From positions 1-42,335 of the forward strand of contig NJBL01000014.1 in NCBI GenBank assembly GCA_005223145.1: DNA of 42,335 bases, given 5' to 3'. This stretch comes from a bacterium (candidate division B38) B3_B38. Its GTDB lineage: Bacteria > Acidobacteriota > B3-B38 > Guanabaribacteriales > B3-B38. Numbering within the stretch: position 1 is the first letter of the stretch; each line of letters starts with the position of its first letter. The notes under the pieces were generated by a model. The model saw nothing but the letters and a program-made list of their open reading frames with translations, was not told the origin of the DNA and ran no database searches. Both the position numbers and the translations under genes were made by a program. Shown piece by piece: positions 27,594 through 32,350 of this stretch.

Positions 27594-28655
27594 CTATCTT
27601 AATCCTTCCAGCCTTCGGTTGACAACCTCGAAGACCTTCTGGGGAGCTATTGCTCCCAGGCAGGGCTCTGCACCACAATCTCTCTTGTAGCAGGGAGCAC
27701 AGGGAACCTTCCGTCTGATGACGATGTCGGCGGGATTGTAAGGACCGTTTCGGTCGGGGTCACTCGGTCCGTAGATGCCCACCACCGGGGTCCCACAGGC
27801 AACCGCCAGATGGAGGGGAGCGCTATCTCCACAAATGAGGAGCTTCGCCCTCTTTATCAAGGCGATAAGCTGCGGAATATCGGTGGAAAAGGAGATAGCC
27901 GGACTTTTCCTCATCCGGGAGGCTATTTCCATAGCCAGCTCTCTCTCCCCGGGTCCCCAGGTCAATAGAATATGATAGCCCATCTTGTTAATTATCATAT
28001 CTGCCAGGGAGGCATACTTCTCCGCCGACCAGCGTTTGCTCCGCCATCCTCCACCGGGGTTTATGATGATAAACTCCGTCAGCTTCAGGGTGCTCAGACC
28101 CTCGGTCACATATCTCTCCGCCTCTTCGCTAAAGACCAGGGGAAACTCCACCCGCCGGGAATCTATGCCGAGGGGCTTTAAAAGACCCAGGTTTTTATCA
28201 ACAACATGTATTTCCTGAGGAGCAGAGGGGCGACTTCGGTTGAGGAAGATACTGCTCCAGGGTTCCCGAAGGTCATCTTTCCCAAAGCCGAGGCGAAGGG
28301 GAGCGCCCGAAAGGAAAGTCAACAGTCCCGATTTTATCAGCCCCTGAAAGTCGATAGCCAGGTCAAACCTCCCACGGCGTAGCTCTCTTACGGAGGAGAA
28401 AAGCTCCCGATAAGTAGATAGGCTGAGGGGCTCCTTCCGCCACCTCAGGGTATCCACTGTTAGCAGCCTGTCTATGAAGGGATGGTGAAGAAGGAGAGGC
28501 TGGTGTCTCTTCTCTACCAGCCAGGAGATTTCCATCTCGGGAAACCTACCCTTGAGGAGGGGAAGGACGGGGAGGGTATGAACTATATCTCCCAGTGAGC
28601 TTAACTTTACTATCAGAATCTTTCTGACTCGCGAGGTATCAATGGCTGGCTCCAT
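27594..28655 (-). CDS. Heptosyltransferase-type glycosyltransferase (GT9), WaaC-like
   Basis: 353 residues. The N-terminal ILIVKLSSLGDIVHTLPVLP block and the C-terminal CGDSAPLHLAVACGTPVVGIYGPSDP block define family GT9, a GT-B fold that transfers ADP-L-glycero-D-manno-heptose to Kdo (WaaC) or to the first heptose (WaaF). The N-terminal KLSSLGD form is closer to WaaC, while the second family member in this operon (30346-31455) has the RGTNWIGD form of WaaF. A cysteine-rich segment, CAPCYKRDCGAEPC, lies near the C-terminus and is common in GT9 proteins of many phyla. It overlaps the hldC gene by 17 bases. The enzyme works at the cytoplasmic face of the inner membrane. Confidence 0.85.
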   Translation of the reverse strand: MEPAIDTSRVRKILIVKLSSLGDIVHTLPVLPLLKGRFPEMEISWLVEKRHQPLLLHHPFIDRLLTVDTLRWRKEPLSLSTYRELFSSVRELRRGRFDLAIDFQGLIKSGLLTFLSGAPLRLGFGKDDLREPWSSIFLNRSRPSAPQEIHVVDKNLGLLKPLGIDSRRVEFPLVFSEEAERYVTEGLSTLKLTEFIIINPGGGWRSKRWSAEKYASLADMIINKMGYHILLTWGPGERELAMEIASRMRKSPAISFSTDIPQLIALIKRAKLLICGDSAPLHLAVACGTPVVGIYGPSDPDRNGPYNPADIVIRRKVPCAPCYKRDCGAEPCLGAIAPQKVFEVVNRRLEGLR

Positions 28656-29136
28656 ATTTTTCTATTATCTTTCTGATTAGCAGGCTGGTGGAGTGACCCT
28701 TGGGGTCTCCTCCCACAACCCTGGTAAGAGTGCCACAACTGGCAGCCACACCCTTCTCGGGAACGCTCTCCTCGGTATAATCGGTTCCTTTGGCGTGGTA
28801 GTGGGGCTTAAGGGTGAGGATGAGTTCTTCGACTGTCGGTTTGTCAAAAACCAACACATAATCAACCAACTCAAAGGCGGAGACAATCTGCGCCCGTTCG
28901 TCCTGGCTCATCAACGGTCTCTTTTTGCCCTTAATCTGCTTCACCGAGCGGTCGCTGTTCACACCCACTATCAATATATCACCCAGCTCTTTCGCCCCTT
29001 TGAGATAGCGGATGTGCCCCACATGAATCAGGTCGAAACAGCCGTTAGCCAGGACAATCACCTTCCCCTCTTCTTTCAGCCTGGTGACTTCCCTGTGGAG
29101 CTCTTCAAGACCTTTTATCTTATCCCTGGTCCCCAT
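28639..29136 (-). CDS. rfaE2: D-glycero-beta-D-manno-heptose 1-phosphate adenylyltransferase
   Basis: 165 residues, the stand-alone form of the C-terminal half of HldE. The nucleotidyltransferase motif is GCFDLIHVGHIRYL (residues about 32-45, with the catalytic HVGH), followed by NSDRSVKQIKG, which contacts the phosphates. It couples heptose 1-phosphate to AMP and yields ADP-heptose for the heptosyltransferases encoded around it. It overlaps the kinase gene by 17 bases upstream and the WaaC-like gene by 17 bases downstream, showing a tightly coupled operon. No defect is seen in this gene, unlike its two neighbours upstream. Confidence 0.92.
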   Translation of the reverse strand: MGTRDKIKGLEELHREVTRLKEEGKVIVLANGCFDLIHVGHIRYLKGAKELGDILIVGVNSDRSVKQIKGKKRPLMSQDERAQIVSAFELVDYVLVFDKPTVEELILTLKPHYHAKGTDYTEESVPEKGVAASCGTLTRVVGGDPKGHSTSLLIRKIIEKYGASH

Positions 29137-30144
29137 TTTCCTCCTCTACTGCCTGGAAGAGTTCCAGCTGGCTGACGGTAGCCGTCGCCCTCTTCATCAC
29201 CACAATCCCTCCAGCGTAGTTAGCCAGCCTTGCCGCCTCGTAGAAGGTAGCTCCAGCAGCTAAAGCAAGGGTGAAGACGCTGATAACCGTGTCTCCAGCC
29301 CCGGTAACGTCGGCTATCTCATCGGTGCCGTAGATTCCTATGTGCACCGGCTCTTTCCCTTTCTCAAAAAGGTTCATACCATCGCTCCCCCTGGTCACCA
29401 GCACTGCCTGGCAGGCTAACCTCTGCAGAAGGGCTCTCCCAGCCTTTACCAGCTCCTTTTCATCCTTCCCTATTGGGACTTGCAGAGCCGCTTCCACCTC
29501 CGGTTCGTTGGGGGTGGCCGCGGTCACCCCTGGATAGCTGAGGAGGTTATAGTGGGAATCCAGAGTGATGATTATCCCCCGGCGGTGAGCCTCGCTCAGG
29601 ATATGCTGAAAGACTGGCTGAGAAAGGAAACCATAGCCATAATCCGACAGGATAATAGCATCGAGGTGGTCGGTCAGGGCATCGAAGCTTTTTATGATTG
29701 AGGGGAACAGCTCGTCCCAGCGGTTGAAGGGGAGCTCCCGGTCCATCCTCAGCACCTGCTGTTTGGTAGAGTGGACACCACCTGCCAGGATACGGCTCTT
29801 GGTTGGGGTGGGGTAATGGGGATGAACAATGAACTGCGACAGCTCCACCCCCCTTTTGGTGAGAGCCTGCAACAGTCTCCTGCCCGATTCATCCTCTCCC
29901 ACCATGCCGATGGGTATGGCGACTCCCCTTAGGTAGCGATGTTGTTGACGGCGTTTGCTCCGCCACCGGGAAGAATCACACTCTCCTCATACTTCAATAT
30001 CAGCACCGGGGCTTCCCTGGATATGCGGTCTATCTTCCCGTAGACGAATTCATCGGCGATCATATCCCCCACTACCAGGAGCCTTTTCCCTGAAAACTCC
30101 TCAATTAGCCTTAATAATCTCTCCCGCAGTCTCCCTTGTTTCAT
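29120..30144 (-). pseudogene. rfaE1: D-glycero-beta-D-manno-heptose-7-phosphate kinase, split by a one-base deletion
   Basis: The gene reads as two frames. The first runs from the ATG at 30144 for 71 codons and stops with TAA at 29931-29929. The second is open through 29120, with its first ATG at 29905. The first ends LPGGGANAVNNIAT, and the other frame continues LRGVAIPIGMVGEDESG, exactly the next part of a PfkB-family heptose kinase. Adding one base in ACCTA (as ACC CTA) restores a single frame of about 341 codons, the normal length. The C-terminal part keeps the catalytic GAGD (VTGAGDTV) and ATP-binding segments. The kinase normally makes heptose 1,7-bisphosphate. The break could be a true mutation or a base missed in a short C run during sequencing. 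Confidence 0.85.
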
Positions 30145-30147
30145 ATC

Positions 30148-30344
30148 TCAGCACCTACCTTTACCATTCTGGTGAAGTAGCTTTATAAGCTGCTGATGGA
30201 CCTCAGATGCTATCTCCTCGGTAAAATAGCCTCGGCAGAGCGTGGAAAAGGCTCAACCCTGAGCGGCTCGTCCACACAGCCCACCTCTTTAGTGATGGTG
30301 CCATCCCTGCCCAGAAAAACCGCTCTACTCTTCTTCCCTATTTT
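30148..30344 (-). pseudogene. gmhB: Remnant of gmhB (heptose 1,7-bisphosphate phosphatase)
   Basis: Between waaF and rfaE1 two short minus-strand segments match consecutive parts of the HAD-type phosphatase GmhB. The first (about 30344-30230) reads KSRAVFLGRDGTITKEVG, then VDEPLRVEPFPRSAEAI, matching the family opening (FLDRDGTIN..VGY). The second, in another frame (about 30232-30148), reads RGYFTEEIASEVHQQLIKLL, which matches the RGYFTEE..VHQ.L segment. The roughly 20-25 residues expected between them are missing, as is everything after the second block, including the CPHH-type zinc region. The nucleophile of DxDGT is changed to Gly (GRDGT) and no start codon remains. It is too decayed to be functional. 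Confidence 0.8.
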
Positions 30345-30345
30345 A

Positions 30346-31455
30346 TTATAAATCCGCTCCCTTGTCAGCTGATTTCAACCTCTCAGTTTCCGTCAGCTTC
30401 TGCCGGGCAACCGAATAGACCTCCTCGGCAGTGATCGCTTTCATACAGCGGTGCTCGGTGGGACAGTCGGCTAACTGGCAGGGGCGGCAATCAAGCTGCT
30501 TGCTTATTACCGAGTGCCCCTCCCCCCAGGGGGCGGTAATCCGCTCGTCGGTAGGTCCAAAGATGCCGATAGTGGGAACCCTCAGCGCAGCTGCCAGATG
30601 CATGGGACCCGAGTCGTTGCTGATAAAGAGCTGGCAAAGGCTGATGACCGCAATCAGCTCCTGCAAGGTTGTCTTCCCGGTAAGGACAATGGGCGTACTC
30701 TTCATAAAGCTGGTCATTTTCCTGGCAATATCCCGCTCCCTGGTGCTCCCCACCACGACCACCCGACAATCAGCCGATTGCTCCAGCCTGTCTGCCACCT
30801 CGCCAAACCTCTCCGGCAGCCACCTTTTAGCGGGACCGAAAGCTGCTCCCGGGTTTATCCCCACCAGAGGCCTCTCCCAACTGACTCCTGAGTTTAGAAG
30901 AAGCTGTTTCATTTTTTCCTTGGCACCTTCATCAATGAGTAACTCCATCTGCGGTGGCTCTTCCTCGGCAATTCCCAGACCACGGAGGAGCTCCGTATAG
31001 TAATAGACATGGTGCCGCCTCAGGGTTTCCTTGTTTACCGGCAGAGCCCTGGTCAGCAAGAAACCCCGACCATCAGTAGCGTAACCCCAGCGGTGAGGGA
31101 TGCGGGCAAAAAAGGTCAGAGCAGCGGCTTGGAAGGCATTCTGGAAGAGGATAGCCAGCTCATACCCCCCTTTCCTGAGCTGCCGGACTACGGATAGGAA
31201 TCCTTTAGCCCCTCTGTATTCCCCACTTCTATCGTAGATCAGGAGATGGTCAATAAGCTTTGAGGGCTGATAGATGCCCGCCACCCAGGGCTTCACCATC
31301 AGGGTGAGCTCAGCTGAGGGGAAAGTCCGTCGGATCACCCTCAAAGCGGGCAAAGAGCAGACACAGTCGCCAATCCAGTTGGTGCCCCTGACCAGGATGG
31401 ACCGGAATCCCTCCTGCGGATATTTTCTCCCTTTTATTCTATTTGTAAAAGGCAT
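30346..31455 (-). CDS. waaF: Lipopolysaccharide heptosyltransferase II (GT9)
   Basis: 369 residues from the ATG at 31455, which has GAAGG eight bases upstream and lies four bases after the stop of the preceding acyltransferase gene. An earlier in-frame start at 31542 would overlap that gene by 83 bases and is rejected. The family block ILVRGTNWIGDCVCSLPALR sits at the start and ISNDSGPMHLAAALRVPTIGIFGPTD near the C-terminus, followed by a cysteine-containing C.PCQLADCP segment. The RGTNWIGD form is typical of WaaF, which adds the second heptose of the LPS inner core at the inner membrane. Its ADP-heptose donor depends on genes that are damaged just downstream. Confidence 0.9.
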   Translation of the reverse strand: MPFTNRIKGRKYPQEGFRSILVRGTNWIGDCVCSLPALRVIRRTFPSAELTLMVKPWVAGIYQPSKLIDHLLIYDRSGEYRGAKGFLSVVRQLRKGGYELAILFQNAFQAAALTFFARIPHRWGYATDGRGFLLTRALPVNKETLRRHHVYYYTELLRGLGIAEEEPPQMELLIDEGAKEKMKQLLLNSGVSWERPLVGINPGAAFGPAKRWLPERFGEVADRLEQSADCRVVVVGSTRERDIARKMTSFMKSTPIVLTGKTTLQELIAVISLCQLFISNDSGPMHLAAALRVPTIGIFGPTDERITAPWGEGHSVISKQLDCRPCQLADCPTEHRCMKAITAEEVYSVARQKLTETERLKSADKGADL

Positions 31456-31459
31456 CCCT

Positions 31460-32350
31460 TTAGCCTTCTTGTGGGGGTTGACTCTTCCATCGCTGGTGAA
31501 TCCATAGCCAGTATTGCGGGTAACGCCGTATATACCCCTCAATCACATCGGTACATCTCTGGGTTAGGTTGACAATCGCTTCCCTCCGGTCAGCGAATTC
31601 CCCTGGCTCAATCTCCTTCTCGTAGATTAACCTGTATCTCCCATCTTTTATCGGAAGGGCAAAAGCGGGTATGAGGGGCGCTTTGGTGCGCAGGGCTAAT
31701 GAAGCCAGAATGGGAGTGGTAGATGCCCACCGTCCAAAAAAGCGTATAAAGATCCCCTCCTGGGGTATGGCGTTCTGATCTATAAGGACTGCCACCCCCT
31801 CCTCTTTTCTGAGGGCTCCCAGTATCCCCTTTACGGCATCCTTCTTATAGATAACCCTATTGCCCGACTTACAGCGATAAGTATGAAGTAATCTCTCCAA
31901 ATAGGGGTTATCAAGGGGACGGCTGACTACCCTCATGGGAAAGCCCAAATACCCCTGGGCAACCCCCATTAGCTCCCAATGCCCGAAATGACCGGTGAAC
32001 AGCAGCACTCCCCTCCCTTTGCGATAAGCACGCTCCAGGTTTTCCAGACCCTGATATTCCACCAGCCTCTGGATAGCCTTCTGTTTAACCCTTCTACCCC
32101 ATAAAATATCCATAATCACCGAGCCGAAATGAGAGAAAGACCTGCGGGCAATCCTTGGTTTATCCGCGCTTCCTGAGGTTGAGGGAAAGGCGATATCGAG
32201 ATTGCTCAAGGCTATCCTCCTCAATTTCGGGCAGAGGTAATAGAAGAGGAGTCCGAAAAGCCTGCCCAGCGCCAGGCACAGCCGGCGGGGTAATACAGCT
32301 GCCTTCAAGGAGAGGGTCTTCACCACAAGCCATTCCAGCCGATAGCGCAT
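31460..32350 (-). CDS. Lipid A acyltransferase of the LpxL/HtrB (LABLAT) family
   Basis: 296 residues, typical for the family. One hydrophobic N-terminal segment (about 25-42) is followed by the acyltransferase motif H-x4-E at His121-Glu126 (TGHFGHWE) and the later block VLIDQNAIPQEGIFIRFFGR. These enzymes add a secondary acyl chain to Kdo2-lipid IVA from acyl-ACP at the inner membrane. Whether this is the LpxL or LpxM step cannot be told. It lies directly after lpxK (three-base gap) and just before waaF, in a cluster that runs through lipid A completion and core addition. Confidence 0.88.
   Translation of the reverse strand: MRYRLEWLVVKTLSLKAAVLPRRLCLALGRLFGLLFYYLCPKLRRIALSNLDIAFPSTSGSADKPRIARRSFSHFGSVIMDILWGRRVKQKAIQRLVEYQGLENLERAYRKGRGVLLFTGHFGHWELMGVAQGYLGFPMRVVSRPLDNPYLERLLHTYRCKSGNRVIYKKDAVKGILGALRKEEGVAVLIDQNAIPQEGIFIRFFGRWASTTPILASLALRTKAPLIPAFALPIKDGRYRLIYEKEIEPGEFADRREAIVNLTQRCTDVIEGYIRRYPQYWLWIHQRWKSQPPQEG

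Follow-up and report, generated by a model that had tools for sequence, protein, structure and literature searches.

Remnants of decayed genes are a known kind of element in loci for the lipopolysaccharide (LPS) core. The described protein closest to the element reported here is GmhB, the heptose-1,7-bisphosphate 7-phosphatase of the HAD-IIIA family, whose E. coli representative has been solved (2gmw/3l8e). The HAD motifs listed for GmhB are motif I, DxDx(T/V); motif II, a Ser or Thr in the TNQSG segment; and motif III, (G/S)Dxx(N/T)D, together with a C-terminal Cys/His segment (PMC8204981). Partial redundancy of GmhB is known from E. coli and K. pneumoniae (PMC9302095; PMC9454879): an E. coli gmhB mutant produces full and short LPS side by side (PMC9302095), and a gmhB mutant resembles the wild type in stress tests, a result ascribed to homologous enzymes (PMC9454879). 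Our literature searches found no paper on gmhB loss or on an HldA paralogue in the bacteria considered here.

The window analysed is a stretch of 42,335 nucleotides from the candidate division B38 bacterium B3_B38, in which waaF and hldA are separated by a gap of 197 bases. A preliminary description, made from the letters of the window, had proposed that this gap hides a remnant of gmhB: two minus-strand frames matching consecutive GmhB blocks, with GRDGT in place of DxDGT, 20-25 residues lost between them, and the C-terminal half and the start codon gone, so that gene finders would pass it over. Each of these features withstood closer analysis. In translation, the minus strand reads KIGKKSRAVFLGRDGTITKEVGCVDEPLRVEPFPRSAEAI and then, in a different frame, CRGYFTEEIASEVHQQLIKLLHQNGKGRC up to a stop. 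Block 1 (30222..30329, minus strand) corresponds to residues 4-39 and block 2 (30163..30246, minus strand) to residues 55-82, as numbered against the full 190-aa GmhB. The first Asp of motif I has become Gly, giving GRDGT, and a net internal deletion of ~70 nt (~23 codons) has removed the TNQSG segment with motif II. Motif III and the Cys/His segment have disappeared with the C-terminal ~110 residues (~330 nt). The former start codon (30339..30341, minus strand), which we place from the beginning of an intact GmhB of the same order, MGENKAVFLDRDGT, now reads ATA. With no start codon and two frames, there is no single ORF for a gene finder to call.

The homology itself is secure. The translated search proposed earlier was run with tblastn, the query being the intact GmhB from G003 (same order, outside the genus) and the target the window; it returned both blocks (30329-30225 and 30246-30163) in the correct order with a sum E of 8e-11. 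The best score of 98 compares with a maximum of 46 among 1000 dinucleotide shuffles, and the two-segment score of 167 with a maximum of 69; since none of the 1000 reached either value, a chance match is ruled out as the source of the two blocks. Across the whole 2.25-Mb genome, block 1 is the top GmhB match (E 1.9e-5), and the runner-up, at E 0.005, belongs to a generic HAD enzyme. The GmhB profile NF006506 matches the remnant weakly (E 0.012), and Pfam and PDB sequence searches of the remnant returned nothing, such that profile scans by themselves would miss it. Because the profile evidence is weak, the case rests on relatives and synteny.

Among the genomes compared, the class is represented by four, namely three congeners (G000, which is the window's genome, G001 and G002) and G003. 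The gene order in G003 is waaF-gmhB-hldA1-hldB1-waaC, with an intact gmhB, overlapping hldA1, exactly where the remnant lies, which bears out the proposal that the remnant occupies the ancestral place of gmhB between waaF and hldA. When the same locus was compared in G001 and G002, both proved to carry this short remnant too, complete with its two deletions and its ATA. The frameshifts differ among the congeners, as do the lesions in the nucleophile motif, which reads GRDGT in the window and DTDDT in G001 and is unreadable in G002. Given shared deletions combined with differing frameshifts and lesions, we conclude that the stretch is very probably a gmhB pseudogene that was fixed before the three known species of the genus split. 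Taken alone, such a pseudogene is ordinary gene decay.

These observations leave almost no room for the reading that the two blocks are a sequencing or assembly error within an intact gmhB. One fact could be cited in its favour, as the neighbouring hldA1 of the window has a single frameshift that is possibly an error. However, the same large deletions occur in two separately assembled congeners, HAD motifs II and III are missing rather than shifted, and ~26 other genes of the window align over their full length with no frameshift. We therefore reject it, chiefly on account of the deletions common to the two congeners.

Most of the surviving sequence drifts. For the three species pairs, which share species and thus are not independent comparisons, the identity of block 1 and the middle is 0.70, 0.63 and 0.62, whereas that of fourfold sites in neighbouring genes is 0.75, 0.73 and 0.78; over its upstream two thirds, the remnant therefore diverges between species at least as much as fourfold sites do. 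The last ~65 nt before hldA (30145-30210) are better conserved, at 0.83-0.92 against 0.73-0.78 for fourfold sites (p 0.01-0.16, depending on the species pair). The 3' edge of the remnant (30145..30165, minus strand) is fused to the hldA leader, holds the probable hldA1 ribosome-binding site AGGTAGGTG and is better kept than the remnant's other parts. Raised conservation of this end fits an hldA ribosome-binding site. Among the three species, conservation of 30145-30210 exceeds what such a site strictly needs. The better-kept end could also be read as a sign that the stretch, though derived from gmhB, now serves hldA as a leader or small RNA. Against this, drift is free over the first two thirds, the ribosome-binding site accounts for most of the conservation at the end, and the short frame has no start codon; a search of the stretch against Rfam gave no match. 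We consider that reading very unlikely. The preliminary description had named purifying selection on the sequence as something else in close relatives as grounds for abandoning its proposal, and we do not see this, as identity nowhere exceeds that of fourfold sites except beside hldA1.

The remaining genes of the cluster, all on the minus strand, have fared differently. Downstream of the remnant, hldA1 is split into a 5' piece (29929..30144, 71 aa), which ends at a frameshift near 29911-29932, and a 3' piece (29120..29905, 261 aa); both G001 and G002 have it as an intact open frame of 339 aa. Its omega is 0.10-0.17 in all three species pairs, and because both pieces in the window are under the same constraint as the congener genes, the frameshift must have arisen very recently or be an assembly error. 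Within G002, positions 1-130 of locus L066 on contig C59 join the first hldA1 codons to a late part of the gene, unlike contig C123 of the same genome; this junction reflects either a deletion at strain level or misassembly where the contig ends. Next come hldB1 (28639..29136), of the heptose-1-phosphate adenylyltransferase type, and an open waaC-like heptosyltransferase I gene (27594..28655; TIGR02193 187.6 bits, cut-off 185.3), while an open waaF-like heptosyltransferase II gene (30346..31542; TIGR02195 195.6 bits, cut-off 134.6) lies on the other side of the remnant. Both heptosyltransferase genes thus look intact, as had been proposed, and HldA1, HldB1, WaaC and WaaF are all under purifying selection.

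The preliminary description had also presented the remnant as the loss of one step of ADP-heptose synthesis. The loss of gmhB holds, and a search of the G000-G002 assemblies at permissive E found no second or intact copy. The restriction to a single step does not hold. Neither gmhA, an intact canonical hldA (hldA2), nor an hldB above the TIGR02199 cut-off was found in the three congener assemblies, which are MAGs of 93, 79 and 80% completeness; G003 has gmhA, gmhB and a canonical hldB. A relic of hldA2 persists in the window's genome (G000:C50:55122-55584), with two in-frame TAGs, a change of frame and no C-terminal half; it adjoins a heptosyltransferase-like gene and lies near nadB, and G003 holds an intact hldA2 amid the same neighbours. 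The start of another contig (G000:C18; L115 3-230) lies in a glycan cluster and carries the 5' part of one more hldA2-type gene; its frame is open, but the contig end cuts it and the continuation is absent from the assembly. Because the MAGs are incomplete to this degree and C18 begins inside an hldA2-type gene, it is a serious caveat that an assembly gap may hide gmhA, gmhB or a portion of a heptose locus. We sought the vacated gmhA site through its neighbour gene in G003, which proved to be absent from the genus as well. HldD was considered as a further lost gene and is uninformative, as G003 too has just generic epimerases far below the cut-off.

Nor does the comparison show a pathway that is whole but for a single step, given that the neighbouring hldA is frameshifted and belongs to a clade whose occurrence is independent of gmhB. 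Among 60 relatives with contig-level assemblies, HldA-type kinases fall into two groups when classed by a threshold on the ratio of two-query scores, with none between 0.57 and 0.86, and a tree of 41 sequences separates HldA1 and HldA2 clades at 100/99 support, with B. cenocepacia HldA grouping with HldA2. Against the HldA equivalog TIGR02198 (curated cut-off 345 bits), HldA2 scores 390 and 382 bits, whereas the intact HldA1 of G001 scores 305.5 bits and other HldA1 proteins 260-289, all below the cut-off. Likewise, HldB1 falls below the curated TIGR02199 cut-off of 181.5 bits in the window (158.7), G002 (159.3) and G003 (177.4). The predicted HldA1 structure (pLDDT 88) is closest to B. cenocepacia HldA, the heptose-7-phosphate kinase (4e84; TM 0.82, 34% identity), which is also its nearest solved relative by sequence (E 9e-40). 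HldA1 is thus an HldA-like kinase, with heptose-7-phosphate as a candidate substrate; it differs from B. cenocepacia HldA in reading RISREAP where that protein has RISPEAP and LDS(R/H) where it has VDPK, and in an insert of 5 residues.

The distribution of the two kinases separates them further, in counts that are threshold-based and in which kinship is handled solely by taking one genome per family. HldA2 is present in 33 of 38 genomes with gmhB and in 2 of 22 without it (p 2e-9; 2e-4 with one genome per family), and it is similarly associated with gmhA (p 3e-10; 1e-4 with one genome per family). Across the 60 relatives, gmhB accompanies both gmhA and HldA2 (p about 1e-9). HldA1 occurs in 27 of the 38 and 16 of the 22 (p 1) and shows at most a weak negative trend with gmhA (p 0.04; 0.45 per family). 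Sixteen genomes from 8 families, several of them 99-100% complete, have HldA1 without gmhA, gmhB or hldA2. In G007, which has no gmhA, an rpiB-like gene for a sugar-phosphate isomerase comes immediately after hldA1-hldB1 on contig C20 (L107 3281-5154); it is possibly a stand-in isomerase, or there by chance.

The sequence of events begins with a genus ancestor that had waaF-gmhB-hldA1-hldB1-waaC, as G003 still does. Its gmhB lost the start codon, the ~70-nt internal segment and the 3' half before the three species split, and what survives has since drifted without constraint. The canonical GmhA-HldA2-GmhB-HldB2 route to ADP-heptose might have been given up as a unit, leaving gmhB without a substrate, and hldA1-hldB1 and the heptosyltransferases might have been retained because they serve an ADP-sugar supply that bypasses GmhA and GmhB. 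Such a supply could consist of another sugar, or could depend on a non-homologous isomerase and phosphatase. For this pathway part of the explanation, in which the canonical route was lost and hldA1-hldB1-waaC/waaF were kept for use free of GmhA and GmhB, we see the chances as evenly balanced. Against it, HldA1 may still act on heptose-7-phosphate, because its nearest solved relative by both sequence and fold is a genuine HldA. Furthermore, gmhB sits in the HldA1 operon of many relatives, a hint of former cooperation between the two.

The main rival explanation agrees that the stretch is a pseudogene and differs on the pathway. It holds that gmhB is the sole true step lost, that another HAD phosphatase substitutes for it, that HldA1-HldB1 still make ADP-heptose, and that gmhA is unassembled or replaced by a non-homologous isomerase. 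The partial redundancy of GmhB in E. coli and K. pneumoniae speaks for it, as does the purifying selection on the four retained proteins. Four relatives (G020, G025, G026 and G049) have gmhA with gmhB undetected; another phosphatase has likely replaced GmhB there, and these genomes also count in its favour. However, gmhA was not found in the three congener assemblies or in the other HldA1-only genomes, of which several reach 99-100% completeness, and canonical hldA is a relic and canonical hldB absent in the genus. We regard this explanation as a credible one that falls somewhat short of an even chance.

Should loss of the canonical route as a unit be the correct reading, the gmhB relic would be a dated mark showing that the genus once had a canonical ADP-heptose route and then dropped it, while its two heptosyltransferase genes and the divergent kinase/adenylyltransferase pair stayed under selection. 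A broader proposal, which we advance tentatively and think more apt to be wrong than right, is that HldA1-HldB1 form the core of a GmhA/GmhB-free ADP-sugar route that supplies WaaC/WaaF-type transferases across many of the phylum's lineages, with the gmhB relic marking a complete switch. The question raised is which sugar HldA1/HldB1 activate, and what cargo WaaC/WaaF carry, in bacteria that lack GmhA and GmhB. Similarity-based annotation would label both pairs as ADP-heptose enzymes and would infer a heptose core that may not exist.

Set beside known systems, both blocks of the remnant align to the N-terminal part of E. coli GmhB, which is also the best solved match of the intact G003 gmhB at the same operon place. 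Relative to the E. coli enzyme, the remnant lacks the start codon, HAD motif II and the C-terminal half, its nucleophile motif is broken, and it is spread over two frames; it does not count as a working GmhB. It resembles other decay remnants of LPS-core loci in its deletions, frameshifts and loss of the start within an operon that is otherwise mostly open. Unlike the usual examples, the loss of gmhB here accompanies that of gmhA, canonical hldB and canonical hldA, and it is found in an environmental MAG lineage in which it is common to three species.
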